From positions 1 to 64,000 of the forward strand of contig CANXME010000291.1 in assembly GCA_948144175.1 (NCBI GenBank): DNA of 64,000 nt, in the 5' to 3' direction. Below are positions 3,101-44,598 of this stretch, in pieces (the stretch's first letter is position 1; every line of letters starts with the position of its first letter). The stretch comes from Closterium sp. NIES-65. Lineage: Eukaryota > Streptophyta > Zygnematophyceae > Desmidiales > Closteriaceae. A program made the translations under genes and the position numbers. A model generated the notes under the pieces. That model was given only the letters and a program-made list of their open reading frames with translations, searched no databases and was not told the DNA's origin.

Positions 3101-6100
3101 GGAGGCACAAAGACAGACAAGCAGAGAGGTTGCAGGGGTGGGAAGAGGGAGGGAGGAAGAAGCTTCCTTCCTTCCGCACCTTATCTGCCTGCCTCTCTGA
3201 TGCCTGGGGCAGGAAAGGAAAACGATGCCTCCTTTGCCTAAGAAACTGGGACAGAAAAAAAAGGAATGAGGCCTCATTGCCTAAGACCCATAAACCTTCA
3301 ACACCCCTGCACAGCATTACGGAATTGGGACTGTGGTGTGCAAGACCCTGCTGTTCCCACAACCCACGACAGTTGAACTCCATGCCTCCACTCCTCCTAT
3401 TAGCCGAGGTTGTTTTTGAGATGTCTCAAAAACAACCTCGCTTCACATTGGCTGGGGAGAGTTTTTGAGACGTCTCAAAGACAACCTCGCTTAACTCAAT
3501 GCCTCCACTCCTCCTATCAGCCGAGTTACATCCTCCTGAGTGAGAGACGCCTGGTCAACACCTCTTGCAGCTCCTCACAGCCCCAGCCACCTGCATACCT
3601 CTCCAGCTCTCACCCTCCAGCAACCTGCACAACTCTCACCCTCCAGCAACCTGCACAACTCTCACCCTCCAGCAACCTGCACAACTCTCACCCTCCAGCA
3701 ACCTGCACAACTCTCACCCTCCAGCAACCTGCACAACTCTCACCCTCCAGCAACCTGCACAACTCTCACCTCCAGCAACCTGCACAACTCTCACCCTCCC
3801 TCCCCCAACGAGGTGACTTTTGAGTCGACTCAAAAGTCGCCTGGTCCACCTCTTGCAGCTCCTCACAGCCCCAGCCACCTGCATACCTCTCCAATGCACA
3901 ACTCCCACCCTCCCTCCCCCAACCCCCAATCCACCCAAACAACGCACCCCCCATCCCAGCCGTGTGACGCCCTCCTGAGGGAGCGACACCCGGCCCAGCT
4001 TCAGCAGCTCCTCACCTCTCCTCACCTCACAGCCTGTATTGAAATCACTTTTGAGAATTCTCAAAAGCTTCAGCAGCTCCTCACCTCACCTCACCTCACA
4101 GCCTCAACCCTGCCGGCACCTCCCCCACAGCCTGTATAACTCTCACCCTCCACCCAACTGCCGCCCCGCTCAGAGCCCCCACAAGCGCACCTCCACGGTC
4201 TCCATGAGTCGAGTGACGTCCTCATGGGTGAGCGACGCCTGCCCCAGCTCCAGTAGCTTCTAGCTAGCCTCATCCCCCATACCTCTCCTCTCCAGACCCC
4301 CCTACAGCCCCCCCCAGCGCACCTCCACGGTCTCCATGAGGTGAGTGACGTCCTCCTGAGTGAGCGACGCCTGCCCCAGCTCCAGTAGCTCTTAATATCG
4401 CCAACCCCATACCTCTCCCGCCCATATCTCTCACAACCCCTCTCACAGCCTCCCCCTCCCCACACACCCTCCAAGCGCACCTCCACGGTCTCCATGAGGC
4501 GAGTGACGTCCTCCTGAGTGAGCGACGCCTGGCCCAGCTCCAGAAGCTCCTGCACCACTGACTCGTCACACTCCATCTGATATGGCGAAGGGGGGAACAG
4601 GGAGAGGCAGACAAAGGGGAATGGAGCCCTGTTGACGCCTGCCCCAGCTCCAGTAACTCGTCTACCACTGACTCGTCACACTCCATCTGATATGGCGAAG
4701 GGGGGAACAGGGAGAGGCAGACAAAGGGGAATGGAGCCCTGTTGACGCCTGCCCCAGCTCCAGTAACTCGTCTACCACTGACTCGTCACACTCCATCTGA
4801 TGTGGCGGAGGGGGGAACAGGGAGAGGCAGACAAAGGGGAATGGAGCTCTGTTGACGCCTGCCCCAGCTCCGTAGCTCTTGTACCAGTGACTCGTCACAC
4901 TCCATCTGATGGGCGGAGAGGAAACAGAAAGTGTGCCGGGGAGGGGGAGGAGAAAGGGGAGCAGGGGAATGGCAGGGACGGGACAACAAGGGCGTTACGT
5001 TCAAATACCACGGCACAGGCATGGCATGGCATGACGGGCATGGCAGGCAGGGCATGGCATGGCATGGCATGGCATGACGGGCATGGCATGGCATGGCATG
5101 GCATGACGGGCATGGCATGGCATGGCATGGCATGGCATGGCATGGCATGGCATGGCATGGCATGGCATGGCATGGCATGGCATGGAATGGCATGGCATGG
5201 CATGGCATGGCATGGCATGACATGACTCACCATGACAGGGGTGGTTGATCGGCCTGGTGCATCCTCATCACTGTCGTTGCTGTGCCTGCTCAAGCAGCAG
5301 CAGCAGCAACAGCAGTGAGGAAAGAAAGACAACAGATCACTTAAGTCGACTCAACATGCCCTCGAGTCAGCTGAAAGATGAGATCATCGTCATCACTCAA
5401 CTGTTGAACAGTGCACTGCTGAGTTTTGAGGCACCTCAAAACAATTTTTGAGGCGCCTCAAAAATCGACTCAAGATGCCCTTGAGTCAGCTGAAAGATGA
5501 GATCATCTTCATCACTCAACTGTTGAACCGTGCACTGCTGTTTTGAGACGTCTCAAAACACTACTTCAAACACTGCAGTTTCAACTGCGTACCTCCTCGC
5601 TGCTCTCTGCGTCCCTGCTCTCTAAACCCGAGCCCCTAAACCCTCAACCCTCCCCAACTCTCTGCTTTTAAAGCTGCCTTTTCCCGCTAGAGACATGCCT
5701 GACGCCTCTGACTCCCACCGGCTCTCTTTCTGGGATTCCCTTAAGCTCACCGCTCGCTCACCCCCTTCCCCTTCATGCGTTTCCTCAGTGCATCCCCTCC
5801 CCTCACTCCGTCTGGTGCGTCTCTTTCTTCTCTCACTCCTTGCACTGTCGCCTCACGTGCAGTGAGGTGTATTTTGAGGCGCCTCAAAATACACCTCACT
5901 GTCCTCTCCTCAGTGCATCCCCTCCCCTCACTCCGTCTGGTGCGTCTCTTTCTTCTCTCACTCCTTCAACTGTCGCTTCACCCCTCAAGAGCCTTGAATC
6001 ACCGCCTCCCACCCACCTCTCTGCGTCTCTGCTCTTGAAGCTGCCTTCTCTCGCTGGTGACATACCAGACGCCTCTGACTCCCACCGGCTCTCCACTTCC

Positions 6101-9100
6101 ACTGGGGGACCGTGGACGGAGGTCGGGGTAAGAAGGTCAGGGGTAGGGGAGGAGAGGGCGGGTGTGGGGAGTTGACTTTTGCGTCGACTAAAAAATGTCT
6201 CTGACTCCCACCGGCTCTCCACTTCCACTGGGGGACCGTGGAGGGAGCTCAGGGTAAGAAGGTCCGGGAGGGGAGGAAGGAAGTGGGGAGAGAGCAGTGA
6301 GTGCAGGGATGAGGGCGTTTGTAGAGGGCAGAAGCACACATGCTGTGCACAGCACTATACAATACACCCATTATTTTCTTTCAACAGCGACACAAGCATA
6401 TCAAACCCAACTGCCCCCTCTGCAGTAGAATACGCACCTGGCCCCTGCAGTCACCTGTCCCCTCCCCTCACTTCCCCCCCCCCCCCACCTCACCTGCACT
6501 GCAAACCTCACCTGCCCTCTTTGCTCACCTGCCCCCTTTGCTCACCTGCCCCCTTTGCTCACCTGCGCCCTGCTCCAGGCTGCGGTAGAGCTCAAAGCGC
6601 AGCACCTCTCTACACCCTCCCTGCGCAACATGCACCAGACACGTCTGCCCCCTGCGCAACATGCACCAGACACGTCTGCCCCCTGCGCAACATGCACCAG
6701 ACACGTCTGCCCCCTGCGCAACATGCACCAGACACGTCTGCCCCCTGCGCAACATGCACCAGACACGTCTGCCCCCTGCGCTAAACACCCCTCACCTGCG
6801 CCCTGTCAACCGCACCCCTCACCTGCGCGGCTGCTCCCACCCTCACCTGCGCCCTGCCCCCCCTGCCCTCACCTGCGCCCTGCTCCAGGCTGCGGTAGAG
6901 CTCAAAGCGCAACACCTCGGATTTGGCCAGCTCGTCCCGCAGACGAGCACACTCCACCTGCCACGACACGCACGCACATGGGAGAGAGGGAAAGAGGGGC
7001 ATTTTGAGTCGTTTAGGAATACAGCTCGTCCCTGCATGTGTGCACACACACACGCACGAACGCACGCGTGCACACATGCAGGGAGGCAGAGACGGGGCGA
7101 GCAAAGGCTCACACAAGTCGTGTTCTGAGTCGACTCAAAACACAACAACCCCCTCACCTGCAGGGCGAGCACGCCAGAGTCATCGAGCTCCTCCAGTCGC
7201 TCTTCCAGCAGCGCCTGCACCAACACGGGATTCATCTCCGCTGCCCTCTCGCCCGCCCTCCGCTTCCACTCGTCTGTGCACCCACGGTAGGGAGAGGGGG
7301 TGGTGAGGGTGGGAGGGGGGGGGGGGGGGGGGGAGAGGGGGGGGTTGAGGGGGGAGGAGAATCTGAGTCATCGAGCTCTTCCAGCAGCGCCTGCACCAAC
7401 ACGGGATTCATCTCCGCTGCCCGCTCCCCTGCCCTCCGCTTCAACTCATCTACGCGCACAGGGGTGGGGGGGAGGAGGGGGGGGGTGGGGGTGGAGGGGT
7501 CGAGGGGGGGAAGGAGGAGTCATCGAGCTCCTCCAGTCCCTCCTCCAGCGCGCCGGGTTCATTTCCGCTGCCCGCTCCCCCGCCCTCCGCTTCCACTCCT
7601 CTGCGCACCCAGTGAAGGGGGGGGGGGGGGGGAGAGGATAAGGGGAGATGGGGGAGGAAGAGAGAAGGGCAAGAGAGAGAAGGATTTGAGACGTGTCAAA
7701 ACTCGACTGCTCCAACGCTGTATTCATCTCCGCTGCCCGCTCGCCCGCGCTCCGCTTCCATTCCATGTCTCTGTTCTGTGCGCCCAAGGGTAGGGTGGGG
7801 GAGAGGGGGAGGGAGAGGGGAGGAGGGTAATAGGAGGAAGGATTTAAGACGTCTCAAAACAAGGCTGCGCCAAGGTCTAATGCTCGCTCGCCCGCCCTCC
7901 GTTTCCACTCCTCTGCACACACACCAGGGAGGAGAGTGGGGGGAAGGAGGGAAGGAGGGGAGTAGGAAAGGAGTCTAAAACTCGTCAGCACCACGGAGGC
8001 AATGGGATGCCCTCGAGTCGACTCAAACCACATCTTAGATGCGCAAGCAGGGCAGGGCATGGCACGGCACGGCAGCCCACTCACCGCAGCGAGAGGCCAT
8101 GGCTTGCAGCTCCATCTCCAGCGCTGCTGCTTGTGCCCTCGCCTCCTCCACTTGCTTGTCCTGCCAGCCCAACCACATCAATCACATCACAGCAATCACA
8201 TCAACCACGATATGGACGCTTCAAAAACCATCTCCAGCGCTGCTGCTTGTGCCCTCGCCTCCTCCACCCATCTGCTTGTCCTGCCAGCCCAACCACATCA
8301 ATCACATCACAGCAGACCGGCGAGGCGAGGCAACGAGACAGATTCGATGCTTGACAAAACTAACAAGGGAACGGAACAGCGAAGAGACAAACGAGCCCTA
8401 AAATGTGCAACCGGAAAGGCAATGTAGCAACAGCGTGGTGAATGAAGGGCGCCATGTTTCCCTCGAGGCACCTCACAAAACGAAAGGAGGTGTAAGTCGT
8501 TGGATGGCAAGAGGAAGGGCTCACAGCAGGGGTGCCATTCTTGAGCTGCTCCTGTAGTAGCAGGTCCTCTAAGGCGTCCCTCTCCTCGCACACCTGCACG
8601 CACGCATGGTCACAAGTATCATGTGGGACAAACAATGTTAGAGGCGAGTCGATTAAAGCAGCTCCTGCAGTAGCAGATCTTTCAAGGCGCCCCTCTCCTC
8701 GCACACCTGGACGCATGGTCACGGAGTCACGAAATTCACAAGGGGAGGCACATATGACTGCATGATGGGAATGCACGACGGAAAGGCATGACCGGAATGC
8801 ATGACGCGAATGCATGAGGGGTATGCATGATGGGAATGCATGATGGGAATGCATGAGGGGAATGCATGAGGGGGCATGAGGGGAATGCATGATGGGAATG
8901 CATGAGGGGAATGCATGATGGGAATGCATGATGGGAATGCATGATGGGAATGCATGAGGGGAATGCATGATGGGAATGCATGAGGGGAATGCATGATGGG
9001 AATGCATGATGGGAACGCATGAGGGGAATGCACGACGGGGATCAACGCTGGGAATGCACGACGGGAACGCATGCGCGTGAGACCATGCGAACACACAGAT

Positions 9101-9452
9101 GCATCAGCGGGCGGTTACACATCGAATACTGCCTGTGAACCAACAGTCACATCAACGTGAGAAGGTACAGGACGGATATGCGAGCATACGTTGATACAGA
9201 TACGGATGAGTGCAAAACTACAGTCACCCTGAACCGCGTACAGACTGCATTATCATACATGAGGTTTCAAACATGGAGCTGAACCCTAGAAAAAAGCAAC
9301 AGAAACGTTGAACGGTAAAGCGACATTAACGAGGACCAATACTTACGAGAATAGCGCGCGGACAGGGCGACGCGGAGACACACCTGTTGGTAGCTCGCTC
9401 GAAGCTCCTCTAGCTCTCTTCCCATGTCCGATAAGCTGTTGGCCGTTGGACC
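170..9452 (-). CDS. Coiled-coil protein gene, multi-exon, 5' end not found
   Basis: Function not recognised. Exons with GT-AG borders (high to low): 9452-9384, 8593-8525, 8160-8085, 7273-7158, 6957-6873, 6101-6066, a tentative 5279-5231, 4576-4481, 3089-2997 and terminal 406-170. The first six join in consistent phase; one further exon is probably missing between 6066 and 5279. The pieces are rich in E, L, A, R and K with heptad-like spacing (for example [47 protein letters not shown]), so a long coiled coil is likely. The tail is Ser/Pro-rich and basic and stops at 170. A cytoskeletal or scaffold role would be only a guess. The first exon was not seen between 9453 and 10844. Nearly every exon has decayed partial copies in its flanking introns, and the introns also carry minisatellites and short palindromes. 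Confidence 0.55.
476..640 (-). repeat. Decayed copies of the terminal exon
   Basis: Two copies of the acceptor side of the terminal exon (intact copy starts at 406) lie upstream of it. One, at about 537-476, again encodes a [22 protein letters not shown] peptide. A shorter one lies around 640-597. Both keep the exon sequence next to the CTCCAG-type acceptor and then diverge. Confidence 0.6.
717..2034. repeat. 20-bp minisatellite, about 65 copies
   Basis: Unit gagggcgaggatgacacgag, tandem for 1.3 kb with scattered single-base insertions and deletions. The unit closely resembles bases 354-380 of the terminal exon (gacacgagggacggcgag region), so it probably arose by amplification of an exon fragment. 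Long open frames across the array are an effect of the repeat and are not annotated as genes. Confidence 0.9.
2040..2684. repeat. 22-bp minisatellite, about 29 copies
   Basis: Unit built on ttcacacatgaacgttc followed by tgggg. It directly follows the 20-bp array. The motif catggcgttctggtggggc at its right end (about 2681-2699) resembles the exon-copy remnant at 605-630, which suggests this array also grew from an exon-copy fragment. Confidence 0.9.
2868..2918 (-). repeat. Partial copy of exon 3089-2997
   Basis: The donor-side half of the coiled-coil exon is repeated, including the MAAML end and its GTATG donor. The acceptor half is missing and the reading frame is altered. Confidence 0.6.
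3405..3440. repeat. Palindromic junction element, 36 bp, centre ATGT
   Basis: Arms are complementary over 17 bp on each side, with TTTTTGAG/CTCAAAAA innermost; only the two central bases do not pair. It lies between two copies of the same ~25-bp intron segment (3382-3406 and 3499-3523). Confidence 0.85.
3461..3482. repeat. Palindromic junction element, centre ACGT
   Basis: GTTTTTGAGACGTCTCAAAG with one mismatched pair. It is followed by the same acaacctcgctt sequence that follows the 3405-3440 copy. Confidence 0.8.
3604..3795. repeat. 26-bp minisatellite, about 7 copies
   Basis: Unit caccctccagcaacctgcac followed by aactct, inside an intron of the coiled-coil gene. Confidence 0.9.
3815..3838. 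repeat. Palindromic junction element, 24 bp, centre TCGA
   Basis: Perfect 24-bp palindrome, GACTTTTGAGTC and its complement. It immediately precedes the second copy (3839-3894) of an intron segment whose first copy is 3558-3610. Confidence 0.9.
4048..4067. repeat. Palindromic junction element, 20 bp, centre AATT
   Basis: Perfect palindrome CTTTTGAGAATTCTCAAAAG. It separates two ~39-bp direct copies, 3998-4036 and 4066-4104. Confidence 0.9.
5019..5222. repeat. Pentanucleotide microsatellite (GGCAT)n
   Basis: About 40 units of ggcat with a few interruptions (gacgggcat), in an intron. Confidence 0.95.
5423..5442. repeat. Palindromic junction element, centre GCAC
   Basis: GTTTTGAGGCACCTCAAAAC; arms pair over 9 bp and the two central bases do not. 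Confidence 0.85.
5444..5465. repeat. Palindromic junction element, 22 bp, centre GCGC
   Basis: Perfect palindrome with TTTTTGAGGCGCCTCAAAAA at its core, one base after the preceding copy. Confidence 0.9.
5539..5560. repeat. Palindromic junction element, 22 bp, centre ACGT
   Basis: Perfect palindrome with GTTTTGAGACGTCTCAAAAC at its core, directly after the second copy of the 119-bp-offset duplication. Confidence 0.9.
5782..5981. repeat. Tandem duplication with palindrome at the junction
   Basis: Copies 5782-5857 and 5907-5981 (offset 125 bp) match almost base for base. The 42-bp palindrome 5860-5901 lies between them. Confidence 0.85.
5860..5901. repeat. Palindromic junction element, 42 bp, perfect, centre GCGC
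   Basis: The longest family member. Every base from 5860 to 5901 pairs, with TTTTGAGGCGCCTCAAAA in the middle and CAGTGAGGTGTA / TACACCTCACTG as outer arms. Confidence 0.95.
6198..6229 (-). repeat. Truncated copy of exon 6101-6066
   Basis: Repeats the [10 protein letters not shown] coding segment and its acceptor. The donor end is replaced by a degenerate palindrome (cttttgcgtcgactaaaaaa, about 6176-6195). A further short remnant of the same exon lies near 5708-5730. Confidence 0.65.
6562..6603 (-). repeat. Partial copy of exon 6957-6873
   Basis: Repeats the donor half ([15 protein letters not shown] plus GTGAG donor). The [13 protein letters not shown] half is missing. Confidence 0.65.
6621..6781. 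repeat. 31-bp minisatellite, 5 copies
   Basis: Unit ctgcgcaacatgcaccagac followed by acgtctgcccc. It lies between the intact exon 6957-6873 and its partial copy. Confidence 0.9.
7120..7143. repeat. Palindromic junction element, centre TCGA
   Basis: TGTTCTGAGTCGACTCAAAA core with a single mismatched pair, 15 bp from the donor of exon 7273-7158. Confidence 0.85.
7685..7700. repeat. Palindromic junction element, centre ACGT
   Basis: TTTGAGACGTGTCAAA with one mismatch, at the truncated end of an exon copy. Confidence 0.75.
7843..7858. repeat. Palindromic junction element, centre ACGT
   Basis: TTTAAGACGTCTCAAA with one mismatch, at the truncated end of an exon copy. Confidence 0.75.
8013..8026. 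repeat. Degenerate palindromic junction element, centre TCGA
   Basis: GAGTCGACTC core with partly decayed T/A arms, upstream of exon 8160-8085 on the plus strand. Confidence 0.6.
8229..8282 (-). repeat. Frameshifted copy of exon 8160-8085
   Basis: Repeats DKQ and the following codons, but a small insertion shifts the frame and the donor end is replaced by a cttcaaaaa remnant. Confidence 0.65.
8660..8707 (-). repeat. Decayed copy of exon 8593-8525
   Basis: Repeats [16 protein letters not shown] and then meets a stop codon. A gcgagtcgattaaagc palindrome remnant lies at the truncated end. Confidence 0.65.
8770..9060. repeat. Minisatellite, about 13-bp unit
   Basis: Units of gaatgcatgatgg alternating with gaatgcatgaggg, about 20 copies, in the intron between exons 9452-9384 and 8593-8525. 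Confidence 0.9.
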
Positions 9453-9571
9453 CTGGTGGCAGCGAAGAGGTACGCGAAAGTGGGTAACGAGACGTATATC
9501 GTCTACGTGTGCGTGATCGGGGGATCGGAAATATTAAGACTCGCGAGAAAGGAGGATCGCTTTGGAATGCG

Positions 9572-9589
9572 TTTTGAGACGTCTCAGAA
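9572..9589. repeat. Palindromic junction element, centre ACGT
   Basis: TTTTGAGACGTCTCAGAA with one mismatched pair, upstream of the most 5' recognised coiled-coil exon. Confidence 0.8.
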
Positions 9590-42297: not shown

Positions 42298-44598
42298 ATG
42301 GCGCGCGCAACCAATCATCTGCGGCTCCTCCTTGCCGCACTCGTCCTCCTCGTTGGTACGTGCTTCCACTCATTTCGTGCGATCGGTACGTGATTCTGGG
42401 GACCGCCCGTGCTGTTCTACTTATCGATGTGCTCTCCCTCTCGAGGCGCCATCGCGTCCTACTCCTTCTCACGCTTTGAAACTCCGCCTTACCCTTTTAC
42501 TATACTCAGTCCTACCGCTTTCGAAGTCAGTCCTACCGCGCTCAAACGCGGCATGTACCACTGCTTCCGTCTGCTCCGCTTTCTCTCCACATTCCTCCAC
42601 ACACCGTACTACGGCGAATGTCTAACGCACGTCGCATCTACTCGCAAGGCTCCTTCTCCCTCCCCAAATCGTCCCATTCCCTCACGTTTCTCAATCCGAC
42701 TCGCGCCCATACCATGTTACTCTCCGCTGGTTTCTGAGAATTTTCAAAATCCAGCTTCTCGCTCCCCAGATAGTCCCTTTCCTCACGTTCCTCAGTTCGC
42801 CTAGCGCTCATGTTTTCCTCTTTTCTCACCCGCGACCTTCTCCTCCTCCCCCCCTTCACTCCTCCCGCGACGCCCTACCCCTCCCCCTTCCGCAATCTCC
42901 GATGTGCGCCCCGTGCCCGCGGCCGCCGATGTCCGCCTCTCCGGCGACGATGATCAACGGTCACCGCCATTCGCCGCTCGCTCCTTCTCAGGCAGCGCCG
43001 AGGCGCAGGTAGGGCTGCGAGAAACATTCGCCAAGTTCGAGAAACCACGTTCGCATATTTCATAGAAGCACTTCCGTCTCTCCCCACCCCCATCTCCTCA
43101 TCTCCCGCACCCTTCCCCTCCTCCCCTTCCTCTCGTAAGTGAGACATGCTCGTTCTGCTTCCCTTCTCTCCCTCACACCCCTCCTGTTCCCTCCGAGGGA
43201 GTCCCTCCTCCCTCCCTCCCGTTCTTGCTCCCTTCCCCTCCGTCCTCGCTATCACGCTCATCTCCCTCCCCCCTCCTCTCTCTCCCTTTCCTCTCCCCGC
43301 GTGCAGGAATTGGTGTTCGTGGGGAGCAACAACGGCACGTGGCTGTCCCCGTGCTGCTACCTTAGGAGTTGACTCAAGAACTCCCCCAACTTATGTGCGG
43401 CTCTGCCCCCGCCCCCTCTATCCTCTCCCCTTGTGCAGAAAGTGGTGTATGTGGGGGGCAATAACGGCCGGTGGCTGTCACCATGGGGCTTTGCGGTGAA
43501 GGACTGGAAGGCGCCCAAGGTGCTGCCTGGCGACCTGCTAGGTACGTCCGTGTCCGAGTTGGGTGCTGCTGCTGCTGCTGCCGCTGGTACTACCGCCCAA
43601 GTGCAGCAATTGACAATGGTGGTTTTCGAGTGGGCGGGGAGCGGTAACGCTGTCAGGAAGGAATTTTGATTGCAAGATTTACAACCCAGGTCTGATCTGG
43701 CACACCGGGCCTGATCTGGCACACCGGGCCTGATCTGGCACACCGGGCCTGATCTGGCACACCGGGCCTGATCTGGCACACCGGGCCTGATCTGGCACAC
43801 CGGGCCTGATCTGGCACACCGGGCCTGATCTGGCACACCGGGCCTGATCTGGCACACCGGGGCCTGATCTGGCACACCGGGCCTGATCTGGCACACCGGG
43901 CCTGATCTGGCACACCGGGCCTGATCTGGCACACCGGGCCTGATCTGGCACACCGGGCCTGATCTGGCACACCGGGCCTGATCTGACACACCAGGCCTGA
44001 TCTGGCACACCGGGCCTGATCTGGCACACCGGGCCTGATCTGACACACCGGGCCTGATCTGGCACACCGGGCCTGCTCTAGCACACCGGGCCTGATCTGG
44101 AAGCACAGCACACCACAACCACCAACTCTGGTCTTTGAGTTTTTTAGGGTTAAGTAATGAATTGTGGCTCAAGGGCTGAGGCTCACCAGCTGGCGCAGGG
44201 CAGAGTGCAGAGCAGGTAGTGCAGAGTGAATCACATCTACAAGGTGGCGCCAGGGCACTACGGCATGTCGGCAAGATGACAGACAGAGCTCTCGAGTGTA
44301 GATATTGATCCCAGAATGACAGCTACCTCTCCTGCCCTTGATATCTCCCTCCCTCCGCTCTCCGTTACCTGTAGTGTTCCAATGGGTGGGCGAGGTACAC
44401 TCGGTGCACAAGGTTGACGTGGCGGATTACACTGCATGCACGTTCCTCAACGCGAAGCAGCTCGCACGCAGCCGCAACTACGGAAAGTACATCTACAAGG
44501 TGGTGCCCAAAGATTACGGCAATACCATTTATTTCAGCAGCAAAGCCAACAATGACTGTAGCGACGGGATCAAGGCGTCATTTGTTGTTGGATCGTAA
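42298..44598 (+). CDS. Early-nodulin-like / phytocyanin-fold protein 2
   Basis: Exons 42298-42355 (58 nt), 42992-43008 (17 nt), 43439-43541 (103 nt) and 44375-44598 (224 nt) use the same phases as gene 1; exons 2-4 have identical lengths. The signal peptide is LRLLLAALVLLV with AEAQ at the likely cleavage site. The mature part begins KVVYVGGNNGRW and includes WKAPKVLPGD and GEVHSVHKV. The C-terminal segment YFSSKANNDCSDGIKA again lacks the expected Cys, His and Met/Gln copper ligands. It is probably a secreted cell-wall or membrane-surface protein like early-nodulin-like proteins; binding partner unknown. Intron 3 carries a 19-bp minisatellite, and a truncated exon 3 copy lies in intron 2. 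Confidence 0.82.
42659..42815. repeat. Tandem duplication with a degenerate palindrome between copies
   Basis: Copies 42659-42720 and 42757-42815 share tccctcacgtt, tca-tcc/tcg and gcgccca/gcgctca blocks. The palindrome-like TTCTGAGAATTTTCAAAA lies at 42732-42749 between them, in intron 1 of gene 2. Confidence 0.6.
43307..43360 (+). repeat. Truncated copy of exon 3 (gene 2)
   Basis: After gtgcag it repeats ELVFVGSNNGTWLSP and then diverges into a stop. It is followed by gagttgactc (43368-43377), a decayed palindrome core, and then the intact exon 43439-43541. Confidence 0.75.
43684..44097. repeat. 19-bp minisatellite, about 22 copies
   Basis: Unit ctgatctggcacaccgggc, very homogeneous, in intron 3 of early-nodulin-like gene 2. 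The long minus-strand open frames across it are repeat artefacts. Confidence 0.95.

Follow-up and report, generated by a model that had tools for sequence, protein, structure and literature searches.

The window analyzed here is a 64,000-nucleotide stretch of the alga Closterium sp. NIES-65 (positions 1 to 64,000 of contig CANXME010000291.1, here C291), and it carries a family of short palindromes of the form TTTTGAG-N4-CTCAAAA. A first-pass annotation claimed at least 12 copies in 6 kb, and all 12 coordinates fit matches to the family core, several of the starts (3405 and 5860) being the outer edges of longer palindromes. The core, TTTTGAGNNNNCTCAAAA, is matched 14 times with at most two mismatches in the window (7 exact, 3 with one mismatch, and 4 with two), and 100 dinucleotide shuffles gave a mean of 0.19. 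Positions 3414-9589 hold 13 of the 14 matches. Decayed copies that had been placed at 6176 and 8013 are present at 6177 and 8015, the latter as GAGTCGACTC with partial arms. Of the related cores claimed farther downstream, the one at 42732 is a two-mismatch core, 39853 is a bare 10-mer (GAGTCGACTC) only, and 43368 has nothing within three mismatches of the family core. The features are as follows, with duplicated stretches, found by a direct-repeat test, on the plus strand and palindromes without strand.

3405..3440, palindrome; core 3414-3431 with an ATGT (decayed ACGT) center, arms extended 9 bp per side (CGAGGTTGT..ACAACCTCG)
3463..3480, palindrome core; ACGT center, one mismatch; its right flank has ACAACCTCGCTT in common with the 3414 copy
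3815..3838, palindrome; TCGA center, core 3818-3835, left arm GAGGTGAC
3998..4035, plus strand, left copy of a 38-bp duplication around the palindrome at 4049
4048..4067, palindrome; AATT center, core 4049-4066, left arm of 13 bp, right arm absent
4067..4104, plus strand, right copy of this 38-bp stretch, with 97% identity to the left one
5343..5421, plus strand, left copy of a 79-bp duplication that encloses two palindromes, with cores at 5424 and 5446
5424..5441, palindrome core; GCAC (decayed GCGC) center
5444..5465, palindrome; GCGC center, core 5446-5463
5462..5540, plus strand, right copy of this 79-bp stretch, with 94% identity to the left one
5539..5560, palindrome; ACGT center, core 5541-5558, no junction duplication detected (one of four such among 50 copies)
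5782..5856, plus strand, left copy of a 75-bp duplication around the palindrome at 5872
5860..5901, 42-bp perfect palindrome; GCGC center, core 5872-5889, N12 (the 12-mer outside the core) CAGTGAGGTGTA
5907..5981, plus strand, right copy of this 75-bp stretch, with 96% identity to the left one
6177..6194, decayed core; two mismatches, TCGA center
7123..7140, core; one mismatch, TCGA center
7684..7701, decayed core; two mismatches, ACGT class
7842..7859, decayed core; two mismatches, ACGT center
8015..8024, GAGTCGACTC with partial arms only
9572..9589, core; one mismatch, ACGT center
42732..42749, weak core, possibly chance; two mismatches, AATT class

The right arm of the palindrome at 5539..5560, CACTACTTCAAACAC, equals N12 plus CAC of the long-arm form described below, a form that C6:43844 also shows. 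CACGTG at 5854-5859 precedes the 42-bp palindrome, and its CAC belongs to the left copy of the 75-bp duplication as well. The 42-bp palindrome has matches over 27-48 bp at many other genomic loci, and we dropped the idea that host sequence was copied into its arms because so many loci share them. We note that window positions 5200-6300 are present three times at approximately 100% identity (C291, C2137, and C416), as either a recent segmental duplication or uncollapsed haplotypes.

The family is abundant in the genome. Across 874,075,685 bases in 2400 contigs, the exact core occurs 30,327 times and a reversed control pattern occurs 4 times, such that the refuting condition set by the first-pass annotation (a count at chance level, or centers without enrichment for self-complementarity) is far from being the case. 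The figure overstates the number of events because arrays exist, with periods of 37, 42, and 53 bp, and because whole segments occur in two or three copies. For scale, published assemblies of the Closterium peracerosum-strigosum-littorale complex span 438 to 975 Mb (PMC10407611), a range into which the 874 Mb here falls. In a 264-kb set (the window, the next 50 kb of C291, and C6 positions 1-150,000), the family makes up 37 of the 44 perfect palindromes with arms of at least 8 nt. In that set, no TTTTGAG..CTCAAAA pair was found at any spacing from 0 to 14 other than 4; the longer-spaced pairs listed look like adjacent copies, and no longer relatives with such termini were seen. The pattern TTTTGAGTCGACTCAAAAG, which represents one center class only, had no matches in viral contigs and none in the other genome contigs scanned, and literature searches limited to open-license papers, on palindromes with duplications, filler DNA, Closterium and charophyte genomes, and telomerase, listed nothing recognizable as the family. 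Outside the family, L031:3326 holds a perfect palindrome, TTGCAAGTCGGCGCCGACTTGCAA, with a nearby copy at 3425.

The center of the palindrome is variable and self-complementary. We sampled 50 copies listed from the genome-wide exact matches, arrays included, which collapsed to 41 independent copies. The center was self-complementary (TCGA, GCGC, ACGT, or AATT) in 46 of the 50, far above the 16/256 expected. The other four centers (TTGA, TCAA, ACAT, and AATC) are each one substitution away, and three of them are CpG decay. The earlier proposal that the center covaries so that palindromy is preserved describes the pattern correctly. Selection is not required, however, because a palindrome necessarily results whenever identical tails are joined head to head.

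The palindromes are flanked by direct duplications, a feature that the first-pass annotation overlooked together with the variable 12-mer and the CACGTG box. Duplication was scored by dynamic programming, in which a direct repeat had to end within 30 nt to the left and start within 30 nt to the right of the palindrome. A junction duplication scoring at least 30 was found in 46 of the 50 copies (40 of 50 at a score of at least 40) versus 14 of 80 random points, a number that was the same for both thresholds. We take the random-point hits to be tandem arrays. After array collapse, 37 of the 41 independent copies retained a junction duplication. In 24 clean cases, with inserts of at most 15 nt per side, the duplicated stretch was 16-96 bp long. 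The two target copies were 100% identical in 5 of these (for example, 60 of 60 bases at C6:109299) and differed in the other 19, with identities of 0.79-0.98. Thus, many insertions are old, and some are recent enough that the duplication is still perfect. Divergence of the two copies also rules out a linker or assembly artifact. A nested pair at C6:85821/85850 suggests, by eye, a candidate 9-bp duplication. Insertion with target duplication is well supported.

One locus retains what appears to be the empty site. The filled site at C6:109299 has the structure A-D-palindrome-D-B, where D is the duplicated stretch, and two downstream tandem paralogs carry D once and lack the palindrome. The paralogs align over A+D (C6:109203-109294 and 109213-109296 at the filled site) and over D+B (109328-109402 and 109321-109402). 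We conclude that at this locus, the only one compared in this way, the palindrome arrived with the duplication. One of the paralogs has TTTTGAG without a mirror half at the corresponding point (GAATTTTGAGGCC), which we take to be chance. Other paralogs of filled sites (C1658/C347 and C2137/C416) include the palindrome at 99-100% identity and are later duplications or uncollapsed copies. On the minus strand, D at C6:109299 looks like the end of a coding exon followed by a GTGAGT donor. An insertion there would leave exon and donor intact in the first copy and would put the palindrome, together with the second copy, in the intron. Such retention would let insertions survive near exon ends and may explain exon-like fragments in the introns of the window. 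We note that a high-copy repeat with dozens of matches, mostly at 85-94% identity, lies just to the left of the C6:109299 insertion (L026:9000-9203) and that elsewhere it often occurs in tandem steps of approximately 104 bp.

Local duplications were also surveyed without reference to the palindrome. An ungapped scan of the 264 kb retained 189 nonoverlapping duplications, and its palindrome counts are lower bounds because it missed many palindrome cases of the dynamic-programming test. Among 25 duplications with 11-50 bp of filler and a score of at least 22, the exact core was present in 8, and no second recurrent filler was seen by eye. Filler exceeded 50 bp in 115 of the 189, with the core in 7. 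Pure duplications with 0-2 bp of filler were rare (3 of 189).

Each palindrome can be described as two half-units joined head to head. From the inside outward, a half-unit reads NCG plus CTCAAAA, which is constant and rarely truncated, then a variable 12-mer, and then CACGTG. In 82 flanks of the 41 independent copies, the outward consensus after CTCAAAA is GTCACCTCG, which decays to near background from about position 10. Palindromy extends beyond the core by a mean of 2.51 bases versus 1.25 when partners are shuffled within center class, and none of 2,000 shuffles reached the observed mean. In 93% of copies, the first outer base agrees with its mirror. Taken separately, the TCGA (P = 0.002) and GCGC (0 of 2,000) classes show a significant excess, and the ACGT (0.11) and AATT (0.08) classes, both small, do not. 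Because the two arms of one copy match beyond what their class predicts, they derive from the same template or like templates. Moreover, the pattern AGGTNNN-core-NNNACCT occurs 665 times in the genome, and its control occurs 0 times. Among the rows listed, NNN is usually mirror matched (GAC/GTC with TCGA; GTA, GTG, CGT, TGT, and GTC with GCGC; and TGA with AATT). The mirror fails in three of the four listed ACGT rows (TAT versus TGT, TAT versus CAT, and GAT versus TGC), and a few others are off by one or two bases.

The outer box lies at a fixed distance. In 162 local flanks, CACGTG is found exactly 12 nt outside TTTTGAG 3 times without mismatch and 10 times within one mismatch, versus a mean of 0.8 and a maximum of 5 at 43 other offsets. 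Tested as a prediction genome-wide, the 12-nt offset gave 1,175 arms, arrays included, and 0 in the control, where approximately 15 would be expected by chance from 60,654 arms. The intervening N12 was tabulated for 76 loci from 100 listed rows with a CACGTG arm. There were 57 distinct values, with A at position 6 in 73 loci, G at position 7 in 70, and C on the strand read in only 31 of 912 letters. The centers of these long-arm loci included 58 ACGT, 8 hybrid GCGT/ACGC, and 3 CpG decay. Elements that carry both CACGTG boxes are rare, with two among the rows listed (C62 and C229).

The two ends of a half-unit behave differently. The outer arm ends vary from 0 nt to past CACGTG (0 to approximately 20 nt beyond the core), and the core is rarely incomplete. 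Self-complementary GAGNNNNCTC sites number 54 in the 264 kb, of which 35 have complete arms and 5 have unrelated centers. In the remaining 14, the arms carry a single mismatch in 8 sites and two mismatches in 1, and in 5 they are wholly or partly absent (approximately 1 expected by chance). Random truncation from both ends is disfavored, as truncation mostly stops at TTTTGAG among these 54 sites. The outer ends tend to share 1-3 bases with the target. In the TCGA class, the shared length averages 0.875 bases versus 0.37 with hosts shuffled (P of about 0.002), and 14 of 24 ends share at least one base where 6.2 were expected. Base composition at 48 host ends gave no clear endonuclease target motif.

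Half-units are also found head to tail or alone. The head-to-tail pattern TTTTGAGNNNAGGTNNNTTTTGAG gave 87 matches, a small minority beside the 30,327 palindromes, and 0 in the control, often in period-17 arrays, and two of the matches are ACG-AGGTGAC joins that mix classes. At L042, the right half of a palindrome is followed by a second right half, and the right arm there can exceed the left and still match the consensus, which rules out snap-back from the left end as the sole route. L050 also has head-to-tail half-units. Half-sites with a base other than G after GAGTC number 258, with A in 78 of 100 listed, which is CpG decay. Half-sites with a base other than C after GAGTCGA number 237, arrays included. 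A pool of half-site genes as the source of the templates was set aside, with few half-only matches and one read (L050). At G000:C2039:1417760-1418220 (L047), copies of one repeated host stretch alternate with sets of three neighboring palindromes of the GCGC type, whose arms resemble CAGTGAGGTGTA, in an array of the form D-PPP-D-PPP-D. At G000:C6:136185-136470, approximately 12 copies of a 24-bp unit, TTTTGAGGCGCCTAAAAAATCACC, appear to be a decayed GCGC palindrome that became a satellite.

As the origin of the palindromes we tentatively favor, with somewhat less than even confidence, a form of dual priming. Each 3' end of a staggered break would be extended by copying of a short RNA, and the like tails would then meet head to head. 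We infer both the template RNA and the enzyme. A staggered break or pair of nicks would open the target. The template RNA would have a 5' end of GNCUCAAAA (or UUCUCAAAA), followed by a 12-mer with very little G and then CACGUG, and the near absence of C from N12 on the strand read fits such an unstructured template. A reverse transcriptase, perhaps telomerase-like, Penelope-like, or from a long interspersed nuclear element (LINE), would copy this RNA onto both ends. Each end would prime by 1-3 bases of microhomology at a variable point in N12 or CACGUG, which would give the outer truncation, and copying would run to the fixed 5' end of the RNA, which would give the fixed inner end. Head-to-head joining of the two like tails would follow, either by way of their self-complementary tips or directly end to end, and the target duplication would result when the overhangs are filled in. 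A fixed inner end, an outer end marked by microhomology, a duplication, repeated units, and hybrid centers are what would be expected from two-ended copying of a short template. Hybrid centers exceed CpG decay in the long-arm table, as if two different templates were sometimes joined. The same steps might serve a broader function, in which a ribonucleoprotein carrying a family of tiny template RNAs (GNCUCAAAA, a little-G 12-mer, and CACGUG) tails both ends of staggered breaks so that the tips anneal and seal, as an adapter for end joining. We regard that broader function as somewhat unlikely. If true, tens of thousands of scars lie in one genome, with local DNA duplicated each time and introns and local duplications seeded.

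Several observations weigh against dual priming. Four of the 50 copies (C6:112012, C6:135166, C291:5541, and L036) have no clear junction duplication, and no poly(A) or other 3' tail was seen on reading the inserts. The microhomology test covers 24 of the 36 ends of the TCGA class, as 12 ends with nonconsensus inserts were dropped. Up to 5 of the 14 incomplete GAGNNNNCTC sites with family centers may be truncated cores or chance. The hybrid centers may be plain A-to-G mutation, and none is present among the 50 listed core copies. Head-to-tail units can also come from array expansion; the 17-bp spacing is set by the TTTTGAGNNNAGGTNNNTTTTGAG pattern itself, and L037 and L050 show other joins. 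Within-copy arm matching exceeds that of two fully independent templatings, most clearly in the GCGC class. No RNA gene or enzyme turned up, and no direct search for them was made. Finally, half-sites without a mirror half are scarce at the 258 and 237 matches given above. Since a template gene would itself be a half-site and one-ended events would be expected, dual priming needs joining to be obligatorily two ended. Both the rarity of half-sites and the arm matching of the GCGC class are accommodated if joining needs two like tails and if one ribonucleoprotein serves both ends.

The alternatives differ in whether the palindrome preexists as DNA. It might be a minute DNA element of 18 to approximately 54 bp (CACGTG-N12-TTTTGAG-NNNN-mirror) that is moved in trans by a transposase or integrase binding both boxes, with N12 a free spacer and palindromy kept by hairpin repair. 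An arrangement in which two constant boxes flank a free spacer of fixed length, here 12 nt, is typical of protein sites, the arms within a copy match, and the common unit is the whole palindrome and not the half. However, the duplications of 16-96 bp are not of fixed length, truncation affects the outer ends, which have microhomology to their targets, half-units occur head to tail, and no longer element was seen in the 264 kb. We consider such an element rather unlikely. The earlier suggestion of minimal hairpin mobile elements is nevertheless the nearest of that annotation's four proposals, in that dispersed insertions with target duplication are indeed present, and binding of the core by a protein, another of the four, is possible. 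Hairpins acting in pre-mRNA leave the flanking direct duplications unexplained. Excision footprints of an inverted-repeat transposon fit badly and were rejected, as a constant center with variable outer ends is the reverse of a footprint.

Preexisting palindromic DNA (a fragment, hairpin, or genomic donor) might instead be captured as filler during end joining that makes duplications, a bound dimer shielding the core from the trimming that shortens the arms. Breaks are known to give rise to small duplications (PMC8355091), and capture would account for microhomology at the outer ends and for variable arms around a mostly intact core. Against this, an identical fragment would be needed tens of thousands of times, the core is the sole recurrent filler seen among the 25 duplications with short filler, pure duplications are rare, and head-to-tail half-units and hybrid centers are unexpected. 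Capture therefore seems quite unlikely to us. Telomerase healing, in which telomeric sequence is put on both break ends and the 17-mer TCGAGGTGACTTTTGAG or its relatives are a telomere-type repeat, would explain head-to-tail 17-mers, and microhomology at break ends is also described for mammalian interstitial telomeric insertions (PMC2246262). The diversity of N12 misfits a single telomerase RNA, and such scars are highly improbable. Finally, a chance palindrome might have been spread by ordinary local tandem repeats and segmental duplications, both of which are present here as the 37-, 42-, and 53-bp arrays and the segments found two or three times. The target sequences are unrelated and the duplicated stretches differ, a diversity that already contradicts this origin; moreover, 41 of 50 copies remain independent after array collapse, and there are four center classes and at least 57 N12s. 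We find ordinary repeat biology barely credible as the source.

Miniature inverted-repeat transposable elements and fold-back elements are short, noncoding, palindromic, and dispersed, with target duplication, and the former have precise ends and fixed short duplications. The Closterium palindromes have neither, their outer ends being variable and their duplications 16-96 bp. Patch-mediated duplications in plants duplicate a short local sequence at a break. Generic filler at duplications is diverse or locally copied, whereas here the same core recurs in 8 of 25. Among the hallmarks of retroposition by LINEs and short interspersed nuclear elements, variable-length duplication and target microhomology are present, and neither a clear cut motif at the 48 host ends nor a 3' tail in the inserts read was seen. 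To our knowledge, and as far as the literature searches listed, no class of mobile element or repair scar combines a fixed center and variable outer ends with constant boxes that enclose a variable 12-mer and with duplications tens of bases long.

Dual or twin priming has been proposed for LINE-1, such that the 3' ends of both strands at a staggered cut prime reverse transcription; it was put forward, without proof, for 39 primate loci (PMC2837659). Like the Closterium palindromes, the LINE-1 products in that account are inverted copies between target duplications with junction microhomology. Unlike them, they derive from an L1 mRNA with poly(A) and a cut motif, whereas the Closterium half is at most approximately 27 nt, has no poly(A) and no clear cut motif seen, and occurs in tens of thousands of copies. 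Interstitial telomeric insertions are likewise attributed to RNA-templated addition at break ends with at least 1 nt of microhomology and with target duplications in some (PMC2246262), but the inserts there are telomeric repeats, and those of Closterium are palindromes of two half-units joined head to head, in which a 12-mer varies. CST/Pol alpha-primase makes small tandem duplications of local sequence at breaks with 3' overhangs, and the part of that report at hand mentions no constant palindromic filler (PMC8355091). Palindromic repeats proliferate in the organelle genomes of another green alga, Volvox (PMC2670323), a likeness by description only, whereas the Closterium contigs carry long terminal repeat retrotransposons and introns.

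Why the palindromes merit attention is that they are abundant, partly recent, and easily scored between strains, and they make directly testable whether general end joining can be carried out by a reverse transcriptase that has its own dedicated template. They may also explain why Closterium introns hold decayed copies of the ends of adjacent exons. We note that in the window, decayed copies of an exon-like stretch (cctccacggtctccatgagg..), partly without palindromes, fill a putative intron at 3540-4900 beside an apparent real exon at approximately 4490. Simple arrays of CATGG- and GCATGATGGGAAT-type repeats occupy 5020-5230 and 8760-9060. Finally, a phytocyanin read from the window had 11 protein matches, all from Closterium; those of NIES-53, Naga37s-1, and NIES-64 cover 70-78% of the query at 93-99% identity.

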